Assembly (NCBI GenBank): GCA_903951425.1
Contig: CAJBBX010000161.1
Span: forward strand, 1 to 45,881
Direction: 5' to 3'
Source of the DNA: an uncultured Chthonomonas sp.
GTDB lineage: Bacteria > Armatimonadota > Chthonomonadetes > Chthonomonadales > CAJBBX01
DNA: 45,881 bases
Shown here: piece after piece, positions 52 to 32,438 of the stretch
How positions within the stretch are numbered: the first letter of the stretch is position 1
Layout of the letters: every line of letters begins with the position of its first letter
The notes under the pieces: model-generated
What the model saw: only the letters and a program-made list of their open reading frames with translations
What the model was told of the DNA's origin: nothing
The model's database searches: none
Position numbers and translations under genes: made by a program

Positions 52-2529
52 TCAGTGCGACGCCGGCGCGCGGCGGATGGCGTTCTGGCGCATGGCGGCC
101 TCGTGGGCGTCCCACTTGGCCTGACGTTGGCAGTCGACGCCCGAGAGCCTGAAGCCCGGCATATCGGCCCTGGGCGAGGCCGCCAGGATGGCCGCGCCCT
201 GCCGGATGATCTCCAGCGCCTCGGCCCGGCGCGGGTCGTCAACGCGGAGCTGGTCGAGGCAGGGGCTCTTCTCCGGCCGCGTGTAGCTCACCAGAGACGC
301 GACCTGTTCGGCCCCCTGGTCTCCCACGCGCACGCCGGTCAGCTCGCCCAGGCGGCGCATCCGGTCCGGCGGGATGGGCGCACGGCCGAAGGCATTGCCG
401 CCGAACTGCGTGGCGTAGGAGCCGTAGTAAGGGGCGTTCATGTCGATCCATGTGATGATCCGGTCCATCTCCTCGCCGCTGAGCCGCACGCCCTCATGCC
501 CGGACTTGAGGATCGATACCAGCCGGCTCCGTCTCGCGCCCCAGGCGTAGGGCGGCAGGATTTCGGCCGGGCCGTCATCGACCGCCTTCACGAGCAGGCG
601 CGGCGGACCCGCGGGCTCGGCGTACCATCGGAGGGCCGACTTGGCGCGTAGCTCCACGTAGCTTGTGCTGAAGGCGTTGCCCACGTCGCCGGCCAGGTTC
701 AGCTTCTTGCCCGCGGGCTGCCCGAAGTCATGGCACCGGACGCAGTGGCGGTCGAAGACGGGCTGCACCTCGGTGAGGTAGTTGAAGTCCCGCGGGGCGC
801 CGTACCAGGGCTTCAGCGTCGAGGCCGGCCGCCGCATGGCCAGGCGCGGCGCGAGTTGCGCCGGGGCTCCGCGCCGGTTGTCGTGGCATCCGGCGCACCC
901 CTGCCTCTCGCCGCCGCGCACCATGGCTCCGCTCCGCATGGTCTGGACCATCATGCCCTCGGCGTCGAGTAGCTGGAAGTAGACGAACCGGTCCGCCGGC
1001 ACCCGGAAGTAGGCCGACCCGTCGCGCTCCACCGGCACGTCGCCCAGGATGCGCTTGTTGCTGGTGCAGTTCCAGTTGAGCGCCGGCGCCTGGGTGGCGT
1101 CGATCCCCCAATTGGCGTCCGACCAGAAGAGCTTGGCAGGCGCCTCGACCACGCGGAGCGTCTTCACCGTGCCGCGCGGCACACCGCCCATGGCGTCGCC
1201 GGAGTAGACGTCGGCCACGTACATCAGCCCCTCCGCCTGGGCCGGCATGGCGCGGGCCGGCTCCATGGGCGGCACAGGGCGGGCCATGATGGGCATGGGG
1301 TCGTAGCAGCCCGGCTCCTCCAGATGCAGGAGCGTCTCGGCGCCCTCCAGGTCGGCCACGAAGAGTCCCATGGTCTCGCCGCGCACCTGCTTGCTGAAGA
1401 GGATCAGCCGGTCGTTCAGCGGGTAGGGGTCCTCGCGCTTGCCCGGCATGCCCACGAAGTTGTCGATCTGCCCGCCGGAAGGGTGGCCGCCGGTGCCGTC
1501 GCCGTAGTCGCGGCGGTTCGTGAGGTAGCCGCGGATATCGGAAGGCCAGGAGCAGACCACCGGCGCGGGGCCGTCGAGGCCCCTGGCGGCGTCCACCAGC
1601 GCGATGGCGCCCCAGGGCCGGTCGTGGCAGGAGCCGAAGGTGCACAGCACTTTGTGCGTGCCGGGCACGGGCCGCGCATCCAGGATCGCGCCCGGCGACC
1701 AGGCGTTGTTGCCGTAGAAGACGGTGTGCGAAGTGCCGTCCGGGTTGCAGGTCCAGAGCCCGAACGCGGGCCCGAAGTGCTTGTCCACATACTCCCAGCG
1801 CTCATAGAGGATGCGGCCGTCGGGCATGACGGCGGGGTGGCCCTCGAAGAGCGTGTTGCGGCCGATCTGGGTCATGAGCGAGCCGTCGGGCTGCATGACG
1901 AAGAGGTTGGCCTGGATATGCCGGTTGCACTGGCAGACCTTGGGCTCGCGAGTGGAGCTGAAGAGGATGCGCCCGTCGGGCAGGTAGACCGGGTCGATGT
2001 CGGAGAGGCCCGAGCCGCCGGTGAGCCGCCTGAGGCCCGGCGCGAAGGGCTCGGGGCAGGCGGCTTCGTCACCCGCGCGCGGTCCCACCTCGATGGGTCC
2101 TCCGGCCTGCGCCCGGGCCAGGTCCAGCTCCCAGATGTGGTAGTCGTCGCCCTTGTCCCGCCGCAGCGAGAAGACGACCCGGCGGCCGTCCCAGCTCACC
2201 TCGGGGTCCCGCGCGATGCCCTGCGGCACGGAGACCAGCGTGCGCGTGGCCCGGCTCACGGGGTCCAGCACCTTCAGCGCGCCGCCGCCCACGAAGCTGC
2301 CGGTGTTGATCTCGCCGGTCTGGAACATGGTCTCGGTGCTGTGGTGGTCGGGCCGGTACTGGGGCCGCACCACGTAGAGGATGGGATGGGCCAGCAGCGC
2401 CGGGTCGGCGAGCAGGCTCTCCGGCGTGCGCGGCCGCGTCCTCGCAGCCGGCGCGGCCAGCAGCAGCGCCAGGGCGATGAATGAGCCCACGGCCAGTCCG
2501 GCAAGTCTGCCACGACGTTTGCTTCCCAT
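52..2529 (-). CDS. Secreted HzsA-like beta-propeller dihaem cytochrome c protein
   Basis: This 825-residue protein starts at an ATG preceded by GGGAGG nine bases upstream and opens with a signal peptide (about residues 1-30). Its first half carries TolB/PD40-type blades, seen as repeated motifs such as DPEVSWDGRRVVFS, DIDPVYLPDGRILFS and HPAVMPDGRILY. The second half has two haem-binding CxxCH motifs, CAGCH at 545-549 and CVRCH at 596-600. This order matches the HzsA-related family, named after the hydrazine synthase alpha subunit of anammox planctomycetes. Members are common in Planctomycetota, Verrucomicrobiota and Armatimonadota that do not make hydrazine, and their role is unknown. No hydrazine synthase beta or gamma subunit is nearby, so a hydrazine role is not supported. 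An extracytoplasmic redox or carbohydrate-oxidising role is only a guess. It stands alone, downstream of the broken DUF499 gene. Confidence 0.85.
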   Translation of the reverse strand: MGSKRRGRLAGLAVGSFIALALLLAAPAARTRPRTPESLLADPALLAHPILYVVRPQYRPDHHSTETMFQTGEINTGSFVGGGALKVLDPVSRATRTLVSVPQGIARDPEVSWDGRRVVFSLRRDKGDDYHIWELDLARAQAGGPIEVGPRAGDEAACPEPFAPGLRRLTGGSGLSDIDPVYLPDGRILFSSTREPKVCQCNRHIQANLFVMQPDGSLMTQIGRNTLFEGHPAVMPDGRILYERWEYVDKHFGPAFGLWTCNPDGTSHTVFYGNNAWSPGAILDARPVPGTHKVLCTFGSCHDRPWGAIALVDAARGLDGPAPVVCSWPSDIRGYLTNRRDYGDGTGGHPSGGQIDNFVGMPGKREDPYPLNDRLILFSKQVRGETMGLFVADLEGAETLLHLEEPGCYDPMPIMARPVPPMEPARAMPAQAEGLMYVADVYSGDAMGGVPRGTVKTLRVVEAPAKLFWSDANWGIDATQAPALNWNCTSNKRILGDVPVERDGSAYFRVPADRFVYFQLLDAEGMMVQTMRSGAMVRGGERQGCAGCHDNRRGAPAQLAPRLAMRRPASTLKPWYGAPRDFNYLTEVQPVFDRHCVRCHDFGQPAGKKLNLAGDVGNAFSTSYVELRAKSALRWYAEPAGPPRLLVKAVDDGPAEILPPYAWGARRSRLVSILKSGHEGVRLSGEEMDRIITWIDMNAPYYGSYATQFGGNAFGRAPIPPDRMRRLGELTGVRVGDQGAEQVASLVSYTRPEKSPCLDQLRVDDPRRAEALEIIRQGAAILAASPRADMPGFRLSGVDCQRQAKWDAHEAAMRQNAIRRAPASH

Positions 2530-2642: not shown

Positions 2643-3707
2643 TCACTCTTCCTCGAACGCGCCCGCGACCTTCAGCACGGCGCAGTTCTCGGAGACGATG
2701 CGGCGAACCTCGTCCGCATAGCCCTCCTCGGCGGTTGCCTGGACCTCGATCCGAATCTCCACCTTGCTGCCTACTACGGCCTGCAGATGCTGGAGGACCT
2801 CCTTCTGGAGGGTCTGCATCTGCGTAGCTGCCTTGAGCGGCTCCAGCGTGGCGTTGGCGTGGAAGCGCCGCAGCCTCGGAGGAACTGGCGGAAGCGGAGG
2901 CGGAGTGGGCCCAGGCCACGGGCCTGGGCCGGGCATCGGATCGGGCGGCGGCTCCGGTCCCGGGCCTGGTCCGGGCTTCGGCTTGTTCTCCTCGTCAAAC
3001 TGCACGAGCGCGATGTCTGGATGGACGACCAGCCCGGACAGGTCCGCCGTGAGGCCGACCAACTGGCCGCCCTTGAGACCGAGGTAGCGGCCGGCCGACT
3101 CGTCGTAGGAGTCCGCGAAGGCCACACCTTCGGTAACCCACAATGTCGAGGCGACACCATCCATGGCCGCGCCCAGCAGCACCTCTTCGTCCTTCAGGCG
3201 CGTCAGGTAGACATACTGGGCGAAGTAGTCGGCGAGTCGGCGCAGTTCGATGTGGGAACCGTCCCACAGGGGGATCTTGTCGAGCCAGCTCCGCAGGATG
3301 CTGGCGGCTAACTTGGTGACCAGCATCTGCTCGTTCTGCAGCTTCTTGAAGGTGCGCTTCGCCAGCGCGTCGCTGCCGGTGACGCGGACCTCCTCCCAGG
3401 TCATTGGTTCCTTGGGATCGGTCTGGCTCGGGACCAACGCCCAGACATAGGTCTCGCCGATGCGGTCGTCGATGGCGCGGTCCGCCGCCGAGCGTCTGGT
3501 CCGCGTCTGATTGAGCTGGAAGGTGTCCAGGTTCAGCTTGGGCGTTTCCCCCGAAGCATCCACCTCGATGGTAGTCCACGCCAGGTAGTCCCGGACGGCG
3601 GCCTGCGGGTCATCCAGTCGTATGGTGTCGGCCGCCAGGAAGACGAGGGCGTTGGTGTACTTACGCGGCCCTGCGCCTCGGTGGCCGCGGATCGTCGCCG
3701 CCGCTCC
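2643..3707 (-). pseudogene. C-terminal remnant of a DUF499-family ATPase
   Basis: The open frame runs from after a TGA at 3708-3710 to the stop at 2643. Recognisable protein begins near 3665 with [13 protein letters not shown], followed by a helical stretch and YVWALVPSQTDP. This is the usual late part of DUF499 proteins, which normally exceed 900 residues. A Pro/Gly-rich linker follows (near codons 225-255 counted from 3563), then a short C-terminal domain ending GAFEEE. The N-terminal two thirds, including the Walker A ATP-binding site, are missing. An internal ATG-like start at 3563 would give 306 residues, but no ribosome binding site stands out there. DUF499 proteins are known as partners of DUF1156 methyltransferases in defence-type loci, and the piece directly upstream is DUF1156. 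I read this as one end of a deletion that removed the middle of the locus. Confidence 0.75.
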
Positions 3708-3982
3708 TCAGTGCTCAGCTTGGGCCAGTTGGGCTTGTCGGCCGTGGGCACCGGCAGCCGGTCGATCAGCGCCAGGTACTCCGCCGGAGCCGCCGGCTCG
3801 CCTGGGTCGTCCACCAGCGACGAGAAGAGCACCGCCCGGCAAGCCGCCAACGGCCGCCGCGCCCACCAGAGGTGCAGCGTAGAGGGGTGCCCATGCCGGA
3901 TGGACTTCTCCCGTGCCGAGGCCACGTTGATAGCCTCCAGCGGCAGAGCGACTTCGATCAGCTTCTTGCGGTAGGTTGGCAT
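3666..3982 (-). pseudogene. N-terminal remnant of a DUF1156 DNA methyltransferase
   Basis: The gene keeps a proper start: ATG at 3982 with AGAGGA upstream. The first 60 or so residues are classic DUF1156, with [39 protein letters not shown] and [10 protein letters not shown]. Full-length proteins of this family are about 900 residues and carry adenine-methyltransferase motifs, none of which are present here. After roughly residue 100 (near 3670-3690) the frame degenerates into Ser/Thr/Arg/Trp-rich sequence, while the neighbouring frame becomes DUF499. The nominal frame stops at 3533. The gene is therefore a truncated stub fused out of frame to the DUF499 tail. It sits about 200 bases downstream of the ParA-like gene in the same direction. 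A misassembly in a metagenomic contig could give the same picture. Confidence 0.75.
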
Positions 3983-4033
3983 GGTTGGTCCTCTTCGGCG
4001 ACAGGATGGGGGCGGGTCTGATTGCCCCCGTCA

Positions 4034-4077
4034 ATTGCTCACGGATTGCTCACGGATTGCCTGTAGATTGCCTGTTG
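4034..4077. repeat. Four tandem 11-bp iteron-like repeats beside parA-like gene
   Basis: Four contiguous 11-base units are visible: ATTGCTCACGG (4034), ATTGCTCACGG (4045), ATTGCCTGTAG (4056) and ATTGCCTGTTG (4067). Weaker copies occur at 4021 (ATTGCCCCCGT) and 4122 (ATTGCTGAGGA). The spacing is one helical turn, so a bound protein would sit on one face of the DNA. The array lies in the 207-base gap between the ParA-like gene and the DUF1156 stub. Repeats of this kind next to parA genes often serve as centromere or operator sites, but no ParB is seen here. Confidence 0.7.
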
Positions 4078-4189
4078 CGGACACGCTTATGGCTCCGGTC
4101 TGATTTCGGCTGCTGCCATCAATTGCTGAGGAATGGCCGATCTGCTGCTGACAACCCATCGCGGTGGAGCAATCGCAGCGCGAGCGGGG

Positions 4190-5185
4190 CTACTCCTGCG
4201 TAACCCTGATGCCCGTCCGAGCCCCAATGGTCCGCGCCAGCCGCACGAAGTCGCTCCTCGCATTGCGCACTGCCTCGCCATGTGCGCCAATGGCTCCGTC
4301 GGCTGGTTTGAGCGAGAACACCGGCTTCCGGACCTCCATCGCCATCGGCATCAGGCTCCGGTAATGCTTCAGTAGGGCCAGCTCGTTAGGCGTCTCCTTC
4401 GGATTGCCTGCCGCGGACGGCTCTTCATCGAGAACCGCGCGCTCGTAGACGCTCGGAATCCGGTCCATCCACTTGCGGTAGGCAATGACCGGCCGATTGT
4501 CGCGCAAGCCATGCTGCATGATGACGTACCCGACTGTGGCCATGTCTCCGCTCGGCAGCGGAAGCGCCGCCGGCGCCTTCTGGCGCAGCTCTCCCCAGAC
4601 CTGTCGCCACTCGCGGAGTGTGGGTCCCAGGTTCTTCAGGCCCTGCAGCGAGTAGAGGTCCGGCGCAAGCGGAACGACGACGAACTGCGAAGCGATCAAA
4701 GCCGCCCTGTTTATGGCGCCGAGATTCGGCCCCACATCGACGAGCGCAATGAGGGCGCGGGTCTGCGCAGCCGCGTTCTCGATGATCCGGTGGAACGCGG
4801 TCATGACGCGGAACGCTGCCTCATCACGGTTGTGGCAGCGCGGCCACGCATCCGACAGCTTGTCCTCGAAGCGCGACAGCCCAAGATCACCGGGTACTAG
4901 CTCAAGAAGATCGGAAACGTGCTCCGTGTGTGGCTTAGCTAGAACATCGCCGGTGCCGCTCAGGATCGGCTGGATCGCCCCGACGATGGTTTCCGGATGC
5001 CCGTCGTCGGGCCAGAGCGCCTCAAGCCGGTCCTCTGCTAGAAACATCGACGTCAGGTTGGCCTGCGGATCAAGGTCTACGGCTAGGGTCGGCACTCCAA
5101 GCTCCGAGAACATCCACGCGACGTGGTAGACAAGGGTTGTCTTGCCTACGCCTCCCTTGTTGTTGAAGAAGGCGATTGTGATCAT
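4190..5185 (-). CDS. ParA/Soj-like P-loop ATPase in a defence-type operon
   Basis: This 331-residue protein has the deviant Walker A motif of the ParA/MinD group at its N-terminus, KGGVGKTT at residues 10-17, followed by the AVDLDPQANLT switch region and VDVGPNLG as Walker B. Family members dimerise on ATP and bind DNA or partners, and most act in plasmid or chromosome partition. The ATG overlaps the stop of the upstream AlbA_2 gene as ATGA (5182-5185), with GGAGG six bases upstream, so the two are translationally coupled. There is no ParB partner. Downstream lie tandem 11-bp repeats and then the DUF1156 stub. Because it sits with a DUF3883 helicase and an AlbA_2 protein, I infer a regulatory or DNA-sensing role in that system rather than plasmid partition. 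A true partition role remains possible if this block came from a plasmid. Confidence 0.85.
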   Translation of the reverse strand: MITIAFFNNKGGVGKTTLVYHVAWMFSELGVPTLAVDLDPQANLTSMFLAEDRLEALWPDDGHPETIVGAIQPILSGTGDVLAKPHTEHVSDLLELVPGDLGLSRFEDKLSDAWPRCHNRDEAAFRVMTAFHRIIENAAAQTRALIALVDVGPNLGAINRAALIASQFVVVPLAPDLYSLQGLKNLGPTLREWRQVWGELRQKAPAALPLPSGDMATVGYVIMQHGLRDNRPVIAYRKWMDRIPSVYERAVLDEEPSAAGNPKETPNELALLKHYRSLMPMAMEVRKPVFSLKPADGAIGAHGEAVRNARSDFVRLARTIGARTGIRVTQE

Positions 5186-6363
5186 AGGTGCCTCCGTAGC
5201 GTCGCGAGCACGAAGCCGCTGTCAAACCCAAACTCAGCCGGGGCACTGCCGTTGTCCGCAAGGGCCGTCTGCGCCCGAAGGACGCCCCGGCCGAACCGAT
5301 TCACATAGCCAAGGTTCTTCAGTGCCTCGGCGACCACCGGATTCCGGTAGCTCGTCTGCATGGGGAAGTTCGCCGGCGACGCTTCGCCGTAGAGCCCACC
5401 GGGGCTCTGAATCTCGATGCGGTCATCGAACCAGGATAACCGGATCGGCGCTGTAGACTGGTAGTTTCTGTGCATGACAGCGTTAAGCAGCAGCTCGCGG
5501 ACTGCTACGATCGGGTACGAAGAAACGGCACGCTCGCGAAGCGCCGTGTCGTCCACCGGATACTGGTCTATCTGCGCCGGAATCAGTGCGTCAAGATCGC
5601 GGAGCATGGTCAGGAGGTCGGCGCAGACGGTCCGCTCGGCGGCAATGGGGGCGTCAAGGCTGGTGCCAGAGATGCGCAGGAACTGCACGTAGGCTCCGGG
5701 TAGGAATCGGCGCACGTCCATGCCGAACAACAGAACGGCTGCGTTGGTCGGAGACTGCAGCCTCTGATCATAGAACCGCAGTGAGGCAAGCTGCTGTTCA
5801 ACCGTCCGGTTGTTCTCCTCGATCACCTCGGGAGCGACGGCTTGCATACGATAGTCGTTAAGGAAGAGGGGCAGCGCCAGGTCGCCAACGGCGCTGTCGA
5901 GACATGGCTCCGCGTCGAATGTCCTCGCATGGGATACCCGGCGCTCGACGAGCATCTGCTCCTCATGCTCCGTGGCGTAGCCCTTGCGCGCTCCAATGCG
6001 GATCCAAACACGGCCCTTGTAGCGGACAGGAGGCAGAGGCGACGGCTGCACCGCGACCACGGCGACCTCGCCCTCCGAGGTGGCTACCTTCTCCACTGTG
6101 AGCGCCGGCAGCGGCTGGATATTGCCGGAATCGCGCAGGCCGCCAAGGGTCGCCATGAGCGCCGCGTCGATAGTCATTCCGGTGATCTGCTTGTTGTCGC
6201 GGACACCTATCAGCAGGTAGCCAGGCTTGCCGTGGTTGGGCAGGTCGTTGGCGAACGCGCAGACCGCTTCGCTGAACTTGTTGGTGTCCGTCGTGGACAC
6301 GGTTAGCTCGCACCCGTCGGCTTCGTGTGCCGATATGAGCTCCCGCAGTTCATCTTCGGTCAT
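5182..6363 (-). CDS. AlbA_2/Schlafen-like protein with ATP-binding C-terminal domain
   Basis: This is a 393-residue protein. The N-terminal part (about 30-125) has the AlbA_2 pattern, with AVCAFANDLPNHGKPGYLLIGV, then VRYKGRVWIRIG. The later part (about 265-375) matches the HATPase-like domain of the RecG-like/transcriptional-regulator group, with VRELLLNAVMHRNY, DDRIEIQSPGGL and GYVNRFGRGV. Such proteins are seen as putative regulators or as parts of defence islands. I chose the ATG at 6363, which has GGGAGG about six bases upstream, over a GTG at 6381. This start overlaps the end of the helicase gene by 14 bases, so the helicase, this gene and parA form one operon. AlbA_2 domains are linked to nucleic-acid binding or RNA cleavage in Schlafen proteins. 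Activity of this protein has not been shown and is inferred at family level only. Confidence 0.85.
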   Translation of the reverse strand: MTEDELRELISAHEADGCELTVSTTDTNKFSEAVCAFANDLPNHGKPGYLLIGVRDNKQITGMTIDAALMATLGGLRDSGNIQPLPALTVEKVATSEGEVAVVAVQPSPLPPVRYKGRVWIRIGARKGYATEHEEQMLVERRVSHARTFDAEPCLDSAVGDLALPLFLNDYRMQAVAPEVIEENNRTVEQQLASLRFYDQRLQSPTNAAVLLFGMDVRRFLPGAYVQFLRISGTSLDAPIAAERTVCADLLTMLRDLDALIPAQIDQYPVDDTALRERAVSSYPIVAVRELLLNAVMHRNYQSTAPIRLSWFDDRIEIQSPGGLYGEASPANFPMQTSYRNPVVAEALKNLGYVNRFGRGVLRAQTALADNGSAPAEFGFDSGFVLATLRRHL

Positions 6364-9300
6364 CCCAGCCTCCCAATCCACCAGGCGAGGGCGCGCCTGC
6401 GCCTCGCTCCCACAGGTCGTCCAGATCGTAGTTCACGCTAGTAGCATACCGGTCCGGCGGGGTCCTGAAGGGTTTGGTCACAAATCGAAGCTCCCGCTCT
6501 GCGCCATCGACCCGCACGATGGCGAGCAGGAACTGCTCGGGCGCGTTGAGGGCTGTCAATATCTCGTTGCGGGTCACGGTGACCGTCGCGGCGCCGACGG
6601 TCCTGCCCTTCACCTCGATGAACCGCAACGCGCCCTGCCGCGTGCGCGATTCGATGTCGTATCCGACGTGGGCGCCGCTGACATCGTGCGGGTCGTGGCC
6701 GGCGGCCCTCTCGGCCGCCATGACGGCCTCCATGGCTGCGAGCTCGACGGCCGGATCGCCATGCCCGAACGCCGGCGCGCCGCCCGATAGCGCTGATGCC
6801 GGGACAACGAGCGCCGCTCCGAGCACGATCGGCGCGCCCTTGCTCAACTGGGCTTCGGCATCCAGTTCGCGCATGCGCCGCTGCAAGCGCTCGATCAGGT
6901 CGTCGCGCCGGCGCTCGGCCGTCACGGCGTTCATGCGGGCCGTCTTGCCGGCATCCTCTCGGTCGCGGAGCTCCCGCGCACGGCCGTCCCAATAGGTGAT
7001 CTCGGATGTCAGCAGTGAGTTCACGGCGGCGCGGGTCCGCGCAACCCGGTCCTGCTGGTGCCCGGCGACCTCGTCGAAGTGTCTCGGCACCATGTGCTGC
7101 GCAGCGAATGCCAGAGCGGCCTGTTCCGCCTGCGGGCCGGTCCACTGCACGCTGCCGGACCGCGCCGCAGCGCCCTCCGCCTCCGACGCGGTTCGGTAGT
7201 CGAGATACGGTGCATGGCCTGCGTCGTTGGCCGTGCCATCGGTGCGTATTTCGACGAACTGCATGCGACGCGACAGGATCGTAAGACCACCGCCCTGGGC
7301 CGGCCTGCCATCGCGCACCTCGTGCATCAGGGCGACCAGAAGACGCGGCTCGCTGGAGCCGTGTTCGTCGATCAGCACGGCGCCCTGCTTCAGCGCAGGC
7401 GTCAGCCGGTCCAGCAGCAGGCTCAGGACCGCTTCCATGAGAGGGTGGCCCGGGCAGAGCAGAGCGGCAGGCGGCTTACCCGGCACGTCCACGTTGGCGC
7501 GCTCGAAGGCGACACGCTCATACCGCGCCGTGACCGGCGGTCCGATCCCAACGGTGCGCCCGCGCTCGCGTACAGGCGCCGGCACATGGCTGATCTCGTA
7601 CCTGCCAGGCTCCCGCTGGGCCAGGCTGCCGCCAACGAACGCGAAGGCCTCACGGAAGAAGGTCTCGATGTAGAATGGCTGAAGGCGGCGGGCCTGAGCT
7701 CGCTCCATGTCGTTGCGGACGCGGGTCACCAGCGAGGCATCCAGCGCATCGTCCGTCAGCGCGCGCTCCTTGAGCAACCTCGCGATGTGTTCGCGGTCCA
7801 GGGCGCCGTCCACCACCTGGTAGAGCCGAGCCCGGACCTCGGGATCGTCGCCGTAGCGCACGGCATCCTGCAGGAGCTTCCACAATGGCGTTTCGGTGAA
7901 GACCTGGCCCAGCACGTCGAAGACCTGCCCGAACAGCGCTCCTCGCTCCTCGTCCAGCTTATGGAGCAGGCGCAGGTAGACGTCACCCTCCCGGGTCTCC
8001 TCGGCCACCAGGTTCCAGAGGTGGCACACCTCCAACTGCCCGATACGGTGGATGCGGCCGAAGCGCTGTTCCAGACGATTTGGGTTCCATGGGAGGTCGT
8101 AGTTGACCATCAGGTGTGCCCGCTGCAGATTGATGCCCTCGCCGGCGGCATCGGTCGCCACGAGGACCACGACCTCCGGGTCGTTGCGGAAGGCCTCCTG
8201 GGCGCGGCGGCGGTCGTCGCGCGCCATGGCCCCGTGGATCACCTCGATGGCATCGGGCCGGCCGATGAGGGTGGCAATGCGCTCGCGAAGGTAGTTCAAC
8301 GTGTCGCGGTGCTCGGTGAACACCACAAGCTTGCGCCTCCCGCCGCCGGCATCGAACAACTCGGGCCGCTCCTGGAGCAGGCTGGAGAGTTCCTCCCACT
8401 TGCGGTCCGTTCCGCTCCGCCGCACGGCGAGGGCCTGGCGCTCCAGCAGCTGCAGGCTGGCGATCTCGGCACGCAACTCGGCGATGCTGCGGGCTGCGGA
8501 GGCCTCGTCGATCGCGCCTTCCTCCATGTCCTCGCGCTCGGCGCCGGTCAGCTCCTCCGGATCGGGCAGTCCGTCCTCGCCGCCCTCGAAGCCCGTGCTC
8601 GTCCAAGGGGTAACCGGAGTGGGCTGGGCCACGCCCCGTCGCTGAAGCTCGGATTCGCGAAGGCGGCGCTCCAGCCGCTCTCGCCGGCGCATCAGGCTGC
8701 GGTAGATCGCCTCTGGGCTCGACGCAAGGCGGCGCTGAAGGCTGGTCAGCGCGAAGCCCACATTGTTGCGAGTGTTCTCGTCCAGCGCGTCGGCCCGGTC
8801 GAACTCCGTGCGCACGTAGGCCGTGACGGCGTTGTACAGTGCAGCCTCGGCTTCGCTCAGCTTGTAGTTCACTGTGTGGGCGCGCCGTTCCGGGAAGAGC
8901 GGCGTGCCGTCCATCTTAACGAGCCGCTCCTTCACGAGCCGCCGCATCAGATCGCCGGCATCCGCTGTGTTGGCGGCGTCGCGTGAGCGGCCCTCGAAAC
9001 GATCACCGTCGAGAAGCGCCAGGAAGAGCTGGAAGTTAGCCTCGATGCCGCTGTGGGGTGTGGCGGTCATGAGAAGCAGGTGGCGCGTGTGCGACGACAG
9101 CTGCTCACCCAGCCGGTACCGCTGGGTCCGCTTCAACTCGCTCCCGTAGTAGCTCGCCGACATCTTGTGCGCTTCGTCCACGACGATCAGGTCCCAGTCG
9201 ATCTGGAGGAGCCGCTCCTGCACGGCTTCGTCGCGTGCCAGCTTGTCCATGCGGCAGATGGCGTACGGATGGCGTTGGAACCAGTTCGCCGGCCCGGCGG

Positions 9301-9865
9301 CCGCGAACTGGTCCGACGTGAATAGGTCAAACTCCAGGTCGAAGCGCTCGTACAACTCGTCCTGCCACTGCTCCGTCAGGCTGCCTGGGCTCACAATCAG
9401 GCAGCGCGCCAGATCGCCGCGCAGCATCAGTTCGCGGATGAGCAGGCCGGCCATGATCGTCTTGCCGGCGCCGGGGTCATCTGCCAGTAGGAACCGCAGC
9501 GGCTGGCGCGTCAGCATTTCGCCGTAGACCGCGGTGATCTGATGCGGGAGCGGCATGATGCGCGATAGATGCACTGCCATCATAGGATCGAACAGATGCG
9601 CCCAGCGGATGCGCTGCGCCTCGAACACGAGGCGGAACAGGTCGCCGTCCGCGGTGAAGGACCATGGGAGCGCGGCATCCTGCAGGGATAGGCGGGCTTC
9701 GTCAGACCGGTCGAGGAGTTCCTCGCCAAGCCCGCCGGCGTCGTCGCGGAACGCTACGCGCACCGCGTCAGGCCCGAGCCACTCCGCCGCTATGATGCTG
9801 ACCGCACATGCGGCGCGCATGCCGGTTACCCGGCTCCCTGTCGTCATCTGTTCCAACTGGATCAT
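6350..9865 (-). CDS. SNF2/DEAD-type helicase with C-terminal DUF3883 domain
   Basis: This 1171-residue superfamily 2 ATPase has a Walker A motif DPGAGKT near 130-136, a DEAH box VDEAH at 229-233, TATPHSG near 268-273, and motifs V and VI (TDAAGEGINLQ, EQRFGRIHRIGQ) near 571-610. A long acidic and coiled insert separates the two RecA lobes. The C-terminal domain from about 1068 has GYDIESR and FIEVKGR, the mark of DUF3883, a nuclease-fold domain common in restriction and defence proteins. The ATG at 9865 is favoured over a GTG at 9913 because AGAGGAG lies about 11 bases upstream of it. It is the first gene of the minus-strand operon with the AlbA_2 and ParA-like genes. Similar helicases accompany DUF1156/DUF499 systems and DISARM-like loci. 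The intact helicase suggests that part of the system may still function. Confidence 0.9.
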   Translation of the reverse strand: MIQLEQMTTGSRVTGMRAACAVSIIAAEWLGPDAVRVAFRDDAGGLGEELLDRSDEARLSLQDAALPWSFTADGDLFRLVFEAQRIRWAHLFDPMMAVHLSRIMPLPHQITAVYGEMLTRQPLRFLLADDPGAGKTIMAGLLIRELMLRGDLARCLIVSPGSLTEQWQDELYERFDLEFDLFTSDQFAAAGPANWFQRHPYAICRMDKLARDEAVQERLLQIDWDLIVVDEAHKMSASYYGSELKRTQRYRLGEQLSSHTRHLLLMTATPHSGIEANFQLFLALLDGDRFEGRSRDAANTADAGDLMRRLVKERLVKMDGTPLFPERRAHTVNYKLSEAEAALYNAVTAYVRTEFDRADALDENTRNNVGFALTSLQRRLASSPEAIYRSLMRRRERLERRLRESELQRRGVAQPTPVTPWTSTGFEGGEDGLPDPEELTGAEREDMEEGAIDEASAARSIAELRAEIASLQLLERQALAVRRSGTDRKWEELSSLLQERPELFDAGGGRRKLVVFTEHRDTLNYLRERIATLIGRPDAIEVIHGAMARDDRRRAQEAFRNDPEVVVLVATDAAGEGINLQRAHLMVNYDLPWNPNRLEQRFGRIHRIGQLEVCHLWNLVAEETREGDVYLRLLHKLDEERGALFGQVFDVLGQVFTETPLWKLLQDAVRYGDDPEVRARLYQVVDGALDREHIARLLKERALTDDALDASLVTRVRNDMERAQARRLQPFYIETFFREAFAFVGGSLAQREPGRYEISHVPAPVRERGRTVGIGPPVTARYERVAFERANVDVPGKPPAALLCPGHPLMEAVLSLLLDRLTPALKQGAVLIDEHGSSEPRLLVALMHEVRDGRPAQGGGLTILSRRMQFVEIRTDGTANDAGHAPYLDYRTASEAEGAAARSGSVQWTGPQAEQAALAFAAQHMVPRHFDEVAGHQQDRVARTRAAVNSLLTSEITYWDGRARELRDREDAGKTARMNAVTAERRRDDLIERLQRRMRELDAEAQLSKGAPIVLGAALVVPASALSGGAPAFGHGDPAVELAAMEAVMAAERAAGHDPHDVSGAHVGYDIESRTRQGALRFIEVKGRTVGAATVTVTRNEILTALNAPEQFLLAIVRVDGAERELRFVTKPFRTPPDRYATSVNYDLDDLWERGAGAPSPGGLGGWDDRR

Positions 9866-30789: not shown

Positions 30790-31293
30790 CTAGTTGAAGA
30801 GGATCGGCCGGAGGGCCGTGCGCATTCGGGCGACCTCAACGGCATTGTGGGCGAGCAACTTGTCGCCCCACACAAGGGAGCCGCCGTTTCGGCACTCCTC
30901 GGCGAGGGCCCCGCCAATGTGCTCAAGCGTGTTCGGGCTTATCAGATGGCGGTGCACGAGGCTACGCCGCGGGTCCTCGACCTCTGTGAGTGCGCCGGCA
31001 ATGAAGACCCGCTCCGCGATGTCGGCGGGCAACTCCAGGTCGTCAGTGAACAGCGTATGCCTGCCGGGCTGGCTGTCGAAGTCGATCAGGGCCACCAGGT
31101 GGGCGCAGCGGAATCGACGAAGCTCGGGCACATAGGTTTGTTGCAGCGCATCACGAACGTTCGTCCAGCCCCGTTGCACGGGCAGAACCTGCAGCGCCCG
31201 TTGATGATCCACGTCGAGATAGAAGCCGTTGGCGATGTCGCGATTCGCCGCGTCCTCCGGCAGGATCAGCACATGGGGACGCTCGCGGTTCAC
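30790..31293 (-). CDS. Small TOPRIM-like protein paired with an AAA ATPase
   Basis: This 167-residue protein has an acidic residue at the end of its first strand (ILPEDAAN, Glu13/Asp14) and a second strand with a DxD pair (ALIDFDSQPG, Asp71/Asp73). That is the pattern of TOPRIM metal-binding folds seen in OLD-family nucleases, DUF4276 and AriB-like proteins. I have no exact family match, and the fold call is by pattern only. It starts at a GTG that overlaps the stop of the ATPase gene by four bases, so the two proteins are made together. A split ATPase plus TOPRIM-like pair is the theme of PARIS and OLD-type anti-phage systems. At 167 residues it is smaller than AriB. Confidence 0.6.
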   Translation of the reverse strand: MNRERPHVLILPEDAANRDIANGFYLDVDHQRALQVLPVQRGWTNVRDALQQTYVPELRRFRCAHLVALIDFDSQPGRHTLFTDDLELPADIAERVFIAGALTEVEDPRRSLVHRHLISPNTLEHIGGALAEECRNGGSLVWGDKLLAHNAVEVARMRTALRPILFN

Positions 31294-32438
31294 GATGCCT
31301 CGCCCCGGGCCTCGACTTCGCCGCCGCGGGCGAGGACATCCGCAAGGTCGCCCTTCAGGCCGAGTTCCGATACCGGCCGCAGGCGTGGCGGCTCCAGGTG
31401 CCCGGCGCGCGTCATGAGCCGCGTGTTCTCGTCCGAGAAGCGGCGGATCGCCTCAGGGTTGTGCGAGGTTGCGATGAACTGCCCGCCGTTGCGGAGGTTG
31501 CGGCGCAGCGACATCACGAGGTGGCCGACCTCGGCAATGCCGATGAAGTTATCCGGCTCGTCCCACAGGCATACAGGCGGGCTCACCGCCTTGCTCAGGG
31601 CAACCACCAGCGCGGCAACGGCGAGGCACTTCTCCCCGTCCGAAAGCTCGCCCAGCGGGATCGATAACCGCTCACCTCTATCGCCGCCAAACACGAACTC
31701 AAGGCTGCGGGCATCAGCGCCCACGGCGCGGTTCTGGACAGATTCCAGGTCCGGTAACACCTCGCGCAGGTACTCGACGAAGGGGGCGTAGGCGGCCGGA
31801 AACTGGGAGATCACCTCACGGAACCAGGCCGCGAAGTTGGCGCAAGAGCTATCCGGGTCAAGCGTTCCGGCGGTCGACTCACTGCCCATGAGCGAGGGTA
31901 CTGGATGCAGTACGAGGATGGACCGCATCCACTGACGGAACTGGTCCAGCGGGTGGTCGGCTCCCTGCGCCTGCATGATCGGCAAGGCGACCTGATGCCA
32001 GTCGATGGGGAACGACGCCTGATGTCCCGGTCTTCGCTCGAATGTGACCTCAGATGACTGGCGTCGGAACACCTCAGAGCCATCGACTGTAAGTGCCTCG
32101 TCGGCCACGCGGAGCTCACGGAACCCCGGCGGCAACTCCAATGCCAACGAGTAGGTGGCAACAACACCAGCCGGGAGCGCAACCTCTATCTCAAGCCGCA
32201 TACGCCTCTGCGCCTCTGCGTCATCCCCCGCACCGAAGCGGACGAGGTCGCTGACCCTTACCAGGCCACCGACGCGGTTCACCCCGCGTCCAATGTCGCG
32301 CAGCATCGAGATGCCGTCAAGCAGGGTGGTCTTGCCCACGCCGTTTCGGCCCACGAGCAGGACGCTCAACCGGTCGGTCAGGGGCACCTCCAGGTTCACG
32401 AGGCACCGGAAGTTGTGTACGTAGAGGCGTCGGATCAT
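31290..32438 (-). CDS. OLD/AAA_21-type ATPase of a two-gene module
   Basis: This 382-residue protein has a Walker A motif GRNGVGKTT at 30-38, a signature LSDGE at 265-269, Walker B VCLWDEPDN at 289-297 and a switch motif TSHNPE at 325-330. It opens with IRRLYVHNFRCLVNLEV, typical of SMC-like AAA_21/AAA_15 ATPases that accompany nucleases in defence loci. It differs from the PtuA gene at 23497-24774 in almost every motif, so it is not a recent copy. The start codon has no ribosome binding site, and a TACAAT lies six bases upstream of it. The small TOPRIM-like gene is coupled downstream. Confidence 0.85.
   Translation of the reverse strand: MIRRLYVHNFRCLVNLEVPLTDRLSVLLVGRNGVGKTTLLDGISMLRDIGRGVNRVGGLVRVSDLVRFGAGDDAEAQRRMRLEIEVALPAGVVATYSLALELPPGFRELRVADEALTVDGSEVFRRQSSEVTFERRPGHQASFPIDWHQVALPIMQAQGADHPLDQFRQWMRSILVLHPVPSLMGSESTAGTLDPDSSCANFAAWFREVISQFPAAYAPFVEYLREVLPDLESVQNRAVGADARSLEFVFGGDRGERLSIPLGELSDGEKCLAVAALVVALSKAVSPPVCLWDEPDNFIGIAEVGHLVMSLRRNLRNGGQFIATSHNPEAIRRFSDENTRLMTRAGHLEPPRLRPVSELGLKGDLADVLARGGEVEARGEAS

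Follow-up and report, generated by a model that had tools for sequence, protein, structure and literature searches.

An albA–parA gene pair carried intact in an apparently decayed Hma defence locus, a putative Schlafen–ParA dyad

Introduction

Current models of Hma, or BREX-related (BR), defence describe a division of labour in which an ATPase locates the invader, a methyltransferase labels self and a helicase-nuclease does the cutting. The known role of ParA-type ATPases is the movement of DNA and other cargo. Here we analyse a locus in which genes of both kinds overlap. It lies in a window of 45,881 nt (the whole stretch of DNA considered here: positions 1-45,881, forward strand, of contig CAJBBX010000161.1, assembly GCA_903951425.1) from an uncultured Chthonomonas sp. 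In this window a helicase gene, hmaA, is followed by albA, encoding a Schlafen-type AlbA_2 protein, and by parA, encoding a ParA-like ATPase.

The name Hma comes from the PADLOC paper (PMC8565338). The Type-1 DUF499-centred BR system is a re-description of Hma and consists of a DUF499 ATPase, a DUF1156-containing N6-methyltransferase and an SNF2 helicase that ends in a nuclease tail (PMC12839542). The latter study also counts Schlafen RNases among the backup effectors found close to BREX and BR loci, and ParA does not appear in its main text. In rat SLFN13, mutating a three-carboxylate site (E205/E210/D248) diminishes RNase activity (PMC5862951). For ParA, dyads of HEPN (MAE_18760) and ParA/Soj genes have been predicted to be toxin–antitoxin modules, with ParA as the proposed antitoxin (Anantharaman et al., 2013; PMC3710099). 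In the open-access literature we found no report of a Schlafen–ParA version (a published one may have been missed), and nothing that joins ParA with HEPN and SIR2, ParA with Schlafen and phage defence, or a ParA-like ATPase with anti-phage activity; a paper on P2/P4 hotspots mentions SIR2 and not ParA.

Results and discussion

On balance, we favour reading the locus as a decayed Hma system in which an intact albA–parA cassette occupies the hmaA–hmaB slot. On this reading the cassette is a unit of its own, with a Schlafen-type RNase as the putative effector and the ParA-like ATPase as its putative regulator. The distribution of the genes establishes that albA–parA is an independent two-gene unit and does not belong with the helicase in an operon of three. 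We searched for the ParA-like protein in 291 genomes of the home phylum, 398 proteobacterial genomes, 396 actinobacterial genomes and viral contigs. The resulting clade has support of 100/99, and 32 of its 33 tree rows are AlbA_2-linked, the lone unlinked row being L126. Counting two short rows, the same AlbA_2–HATPase gene lies directly upstream of parA in 34 of 35 loci of the clade. As in the window, the parA start usually falls 4 nt inside albA. Hma genes surround or adjoin five of the 34 pairs: those of the window, L106 (same genus), L089 (a proteobacterial metagenome-assembled genome), L229 (actinobacterial) and L198, where the neighbour is a C-terminal remnant of HmaA. One more (L117) is flanked by pglX and pglZ within a BREX operon. 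The remaining pairs are solitary, with unrelated genes around them; several lie near contig ends, and a few associations may be missed.

The pair occurs in the home phylum, Proteobacteria, Actinobacteria and viral contigs, with a patchy distribution. The nearest relatives of the window ParA come from the proteobacterial sample and not from the same-genus L106, whose own ParA is sister to that of the actinobacterial L229. Because taxa interleave in this way in the ParA tree, the cassette has likely spread by horizontal transfer.

Seen from the Hma side, the gap between hmaA and hmaB is an accessory slot open to many genes, and albA–parA is one such cargo. Among 61 loci with hmaA before hmaB (L023-L102), 43 carry in the gap one or more genes of at least 100 aa on the same strand, and the genes found there fall into 52 clusters. 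The commonest are OLD/AbiEii-like ATPases (11), AlbA_2 Schlafens (7, including L089) and sacsin-like HATPase proteins (6); rarer ones include NYN and GmrSD. Both albA and parA are present in one of the best 80 HmaA loci from a scan of the genome collection, that of L089, again between hmaA and hmaB. If our reading of the dyad is true, it explains one kind of cargo in this slot.

We identify the helicase as HmaA, a component of the already known Hma (Type-1 BR) system. PADLOC matches it over nearly its whole length (1582 bits, E = 0) and the match is therefore not due to chance. Pfam identifies SNF2-rel_dom, Helicase_C and NOV_C, the last being the DUF3883 nuclease-fold tail. The catalytic motifs are intact (Walker A DDPGAGKT, DEAH and D1086...E1100xK1102) and, in 82 aligned homologues, invariant or nearly so, with no exception at the key residues. 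The locus thus resembles Hma in its helicase, with an SNF2 core and an active-type PD-(D/E)XK tail, and, by comparison with the 61 loci, in its hmaA-(accessory)-hmaB-hmaC order on one strand, with DUF1156 and DUF499 remnants in the expected places. It differs from Hma in what HmaB and HmaC have lost. A first-pass annotation, made from the sequence alone, had described three intact, overlapping genes for a helicase with a nuclease-fold tail, an AlbA_2 protein and a ParA-like ATPase, next to DUF1156/DUF499 remnants, and had suggested that they may be a variant of a methylation-linked anti-phage system. The open reading frames (ORFs), the Pfam domains, both remnants (Table 1) and the PADLOC identity of the helicase bear this out. 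The system, thought at the time to be not well described, is one already published under two names.

HmaB homology ends near residue 62 of about 960, so that the methyltransferase domain is gone, and HmaC homology starts only near residue 761 of about 1115, beyond the AAA+ core. The hmaB remnant is 78-95% identical to HmaB N-termini; the hmaC remnant, with about 32-49% identity to 20+ HmaC proteins (tblastn), is out of frame with it and has one stop at its upstream edge. Relative to related loci, ~5 kb is missing at the junction. Two of the three Hma core proteins are therefore lost. Since both partners of HmaA are gone, this copy probably no longer restricts phage. A profile search of the 6.08-Mb assembly found no other HmaB or HmaC copy or fragment, and we reject a complete Hma elsewhere in the genome. 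Other loci carry comparable losses beside an intact pair. In L229 (6081-12943) an HmaB N-terminus is joined to an HmaC C-terminus and the HmaA helicase core is deleted; this locus also has a DUF4062 gene and a second HATPase_c_4 gene. In L198, 77 residues of HmaA are left.

The AlbA_2 protein joins an SLFN_AlbA_2 domain (Pfam 55.9 bits, cut-off 25.3) to HATPase_c_4, which ends at residue 394 of 399 and leaves no space for a C-terminal winged helix-turn-helix (wHTH). Alignment indicates that it keeps the Schlafen E-x4-E…D triad (E20-x4-E25...D62): E20 and E25 do not vary among ten AlbA_2 proteins, and D62 is found in 90% or more. The 5-residue step is that of SLFN13, and the following interval is 37 residues in AlbA_2 versus 38 in SLFN13. 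Foldseek matches of a weak structure model include Schlafen structures, the nearest solved structure being DIP2311, an uncharacterised Corynebacterium protein. A single-protein scan of viral contigs with AlbA_2 gave no match. The protein resembles the accessory Schlafen RNases of BREX and BR loci (PMC12839542) in having an AlbA_2 domain with a C-terminal minimal histidine-kinase-like ATPase and in lying beside core genes. Unlike them, it lacks the C-terminal wHTH and is coupled to a ParA-like ATPase, in a pair that is mostly found away from BREX and BR loci.

The ParA-like protein (AAA_31, Pfam 89 bits) has a deviant Walker A motif, NNKGGVGKT, and a C-terminal signature, PxFxLxxxDGxxG. Its structure model has a mean predicted local distance difference test (pLDDT) score of 89.4, and the nearest solved structure is DIP2308 (PDB 3pg5), also an uncharacterised Corynebacterium protein. 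The DIP2308 and DIP2311 locus tags are three apart in one genome, which suggests a linked ParA–AlbA_2 pair in Corynebacterium too. The fold and the deviant Walker A motif are shared with the ParA/Soj proteins of ParABS partition, but the window ParA is longer, has a C-terminal extension and a constant effector-type neighbour, and lacks an adjacent ParB. Ordinary Soj-like ParAs match mainly its first ~190 residues, and weakly. We saw no ParB gene adjoining parA in the window or adjoining the pairs inspected; the first-pass annotation was right on this point and right to call the gene an unusual companion in a defence cluster. PADLOC matches of the ParA-like and AlbA_2 proteins to PDC-M28B and Argonaute-associated systems are low-scoring or partial-domain likenesses and were not taken as membership.

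Relatives of this ParA are followed by other genes, mostly overlapping or nearly so: SIR2 (24 loci), HEPN_RiboL-PSP (4) and RelA_SpoT (4), with classes assigned by Pfam on representatives and elsewhere by similarity to these. The ParA–SIR2 genes occur on viral contigs (in several cases with integrase- or portal-like neighbours), on plasmids and on proteobacterial chromosomes, and are candidate phage-borne defence dyads. They share with the window a related ParA, in most cases with PxFxLxxxDGxxG, and an overlapping partner gene, but the partner is SIR2 rather than Schlafen, lies downstream of parA and is often phage-borne. The signature is common to AlbA- and SIR2-linked ParAs and absent from ordinary Soj-like ParAs. 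In related dyads, the predicted effector changes and the ATPase stays. The HEPN–ParA dyads (PMC3710099) are likewise two-gene modules in which a ParA/Soj-like ATPase, the proposed restraining partner, stands beside a predicted RNase. In the window, however, the partner is SLFN_AlbA_2 with HATPase_c_4 and lies upstream of parA, whereas the HEPN partners seen here are downstream, and the window ParA clade is distinct from and only distantly related to the HEPN-linked ParAs. One of the latter loci, L123, is inovirus Pf1, identified by similarity search only. In L221 (5995-7851) a ParA-like gene is followed by one for a 244-aa protein that looks nucleotidyl cyclase-like by eye and has no Pfam match.

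Disrupted copies of the pair also occur. In three loci albA is broken and parA intact: L190 has an insertion of an IS30-like transposase (family assigned by eye), and L191 and L205 have internal deletions. Both genes are broken in L206, L207 and L208, partly by frameshifts that are possibly sequencing errors. A fused remnant, G007 (L108 9396-9941), joins AlbA_2 residues 16-110 to ParA residues 264-331. Among the loci examined there is no case of a broken parA with an intact albA. Breakage of albA alone, though seen in small numbers, is what one would expect if the effector were costly and its partner harmless.

The pair is best read as an abortive-infection or toxin–antitoxin dyad that larger defence systems carry as cargo, and we infer for it RNase activity, toxicity, regulation by ParA and a part in phage defence. 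The effector would be a Schlafen RNase with a fused GHKL ATPase domain, and its translation would be coupled to that of a ParA-like ATPase acting as its sensor or restrainer. The ParA-like protein, when in one of its nucleotide states and perhaps bound to DNA, would keep the Schlafen protein from acting; a shift of that state, brought on by phage attack or by the outer defence failing, would free the RNase, which would cut tRNA or rRNA, stop growth and so limit the phage. In Hma and BREX loci the dyad may be a backup layer. This logic would parallel the ParA-as-antitoxin proposal for HEPN–ParA dyads (PMC3710099).

Some observations weigh against an effector and its restrainer. Most pairs are without defence neighbours. 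The AlbA_2 model has a predicted template modelling (pTM) score of 0.47, low confidence and too poor to place the active site, so the triad is assigned from sequence. The albA-only disruptions (n=3) do not suffice for statistics, and faulty assembly may account for some of them. The HEPN- and RelA-linked ParAs are distant and lack the C-terminal signature, and the effector swap is therefore best supported for Schlafen versus SIR2 only. Lastly, Pfam names DIP2311-like AlbA_2–HATPase relatives transcriptional regulators. This name, together with the annotation of Pf1 and P22-like ParA relatives as regulatory or partition proteins, would fit a module without a toxin, in which a transcriptional regulator acts with an ATP-dependent ParA-like co-regulator. 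We consider that unlikely: the five residues that follow the HATPase domain leave AlbA_2 no DNA-binding domain, the RNase-type triad is conserved, relatives swap in SIR2, HEPN or RelA/SpoT, which are toxin-type domains and not regulators, and solitary pairs adjoin unrelated genes. The ParA fold, the Walker motifs and relatives on plasmids and phages could instead mark the gene as a remnant of plasmid or prophage partition with AlbA_2 as a passenger. The odds of this are very low, given that, across genomes of three phyla, the gene constantly found beside parA is of effector type and that one relative (L120) is on a plasmid with its own separate parAB; plasmid partition itself we reject for want of ParB.

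The first-pass annotation had seen the three genes as a single operon type, in which ParA could control assembly on DNA. In such a unit ParA, partnered by the ATP-binding AlbA_2, would govern how the helicase-nuclease is loaded or assembled on DNA. The overlap of hmaA, albA and parA in one operon agrees with this, as does the recurrence of the order hmaA-albA-parA-hmaB in L089, with an extra gene in L106 and with truncated Hma genes in L229. Counter to this, 29 of the 34 AlbA_2–ParA pairs lie apart from the helicase, an outcome that the first-pass annotation had itself named as counting against its view; moreover, only one of the best 80 HmaA loci contains the pair, and the partner that ParA keeps is AlbA_2. 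At the level of genomes, the pair and HmaA show no significant association in the home phylum (2 of 10, p = 0.38); in Proteobacteria the association is weak (3 of 20, p = 0.011), with the two on different contigs. We reject ParA as a helicase loader on this distribution and give the single unit almost no credence. A further alternative touches the decay of Hma and not the cassette: the HmaB–HmaC deletion may be an assembly artefact and the living genome may have a complete Hma. The assembly has 188 contigs and 3.08% contamination, the junction is without read-level support, and the similar junction in L229, which is unrelated, could reflect a habit of the assembler. The chance of this is small, as no other HmaB or HmaC fragment exists in the assembly. 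Moreover, the breakpoints differ between the window and L229 (about 62 versus 131 in HmaB; about 761 versus about 883 in HmaC), which fits separate deletions.

Extending the reading of albA–parA as effector and regulator, we tentatively propose, with less conviction than for the locus itself, an unrecognised two-gene abortive-infection family. One ParA-like clade would be the common sensor or restrainer, with a Schlafen RNase, a SIR2 NADase and, more distantly, a HEPN RNase or a RelA/SpoT-type synthetase as effectors. The family would travel alone, in prophages and as Hma or BREX cargo, and its ParA would have an immune role separate from DNA partition. If this is true, ParA is a general regulator of cell-suicide effectors, and bacterial Schlafens gain a dedicated partner.

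Locus features and additional observations

Table 1. Coordinates of the window features and loci of related ParA dyads
Feature	Position or loci	Strand	Details
hmaA, SNF2/Swi2 helicase with NOV_C/DUF3883 PD-(D/E)XK nuclease-fold tail	6350..9865	-	1171 aa from ATG 9865; PADLOC, Pfam, motifs
albA, Schlafen AlbA_2 with GHKL HATPase_c_4	5182..6381	-	399 aa; Pfam, triad comparison
parA-like ATPase	4190..5185	-	331 aa; Pfam, motifs, structure model, tree
Spacer, parA to hmaB remnant	3983..4189	-	207 nt
hmaB remnant, DUF1156 N-terminus only	3797..3982	-	PADLOC HmaB positions 7-64
hmaC (DUF499) remnant, C-terminal third	2643..3713	-	PADLOC HmaC positions 581-936; tblastn
ParA–SIR2 loci	L134-L149, L151, L156, L120, L121, L212, L213, L215, L220		SIR2 downstream, usually 4-nt overlap
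ParA–RelA_SpoT loci	L211, L218		RelA/SpoT-domain gene directly after more distant ParA-like gene
ParA–HEPN loci	L214, L217, L222, L123		HEPN_RiboL-PSP gene directly after more distant ParA-like gene

The hmaA ORF is open to 9913, with the ATG in Table 1 as its likely start. The start of albA, inside the end of hmaA, is the GTG at 6381 or a conserved ATG at 6363. The ORF at 3533-3982 opens with the DUF1156 end of HmaB. Elsewhere on the contig, an AAA_21/AbiEii-like (OLD-type) ATPase gene and a 167-aa gene without a Pfam match, overlapping by 4 nt (30790-32438, minus strand), are possibly a second defence dyad. A tRNA-Thr predicted at 1618-1704 (plus strand) lies antisense within a coding gene (52-2529) with a hydrazine-synthase-alpha-like domain, and is probably a false call.

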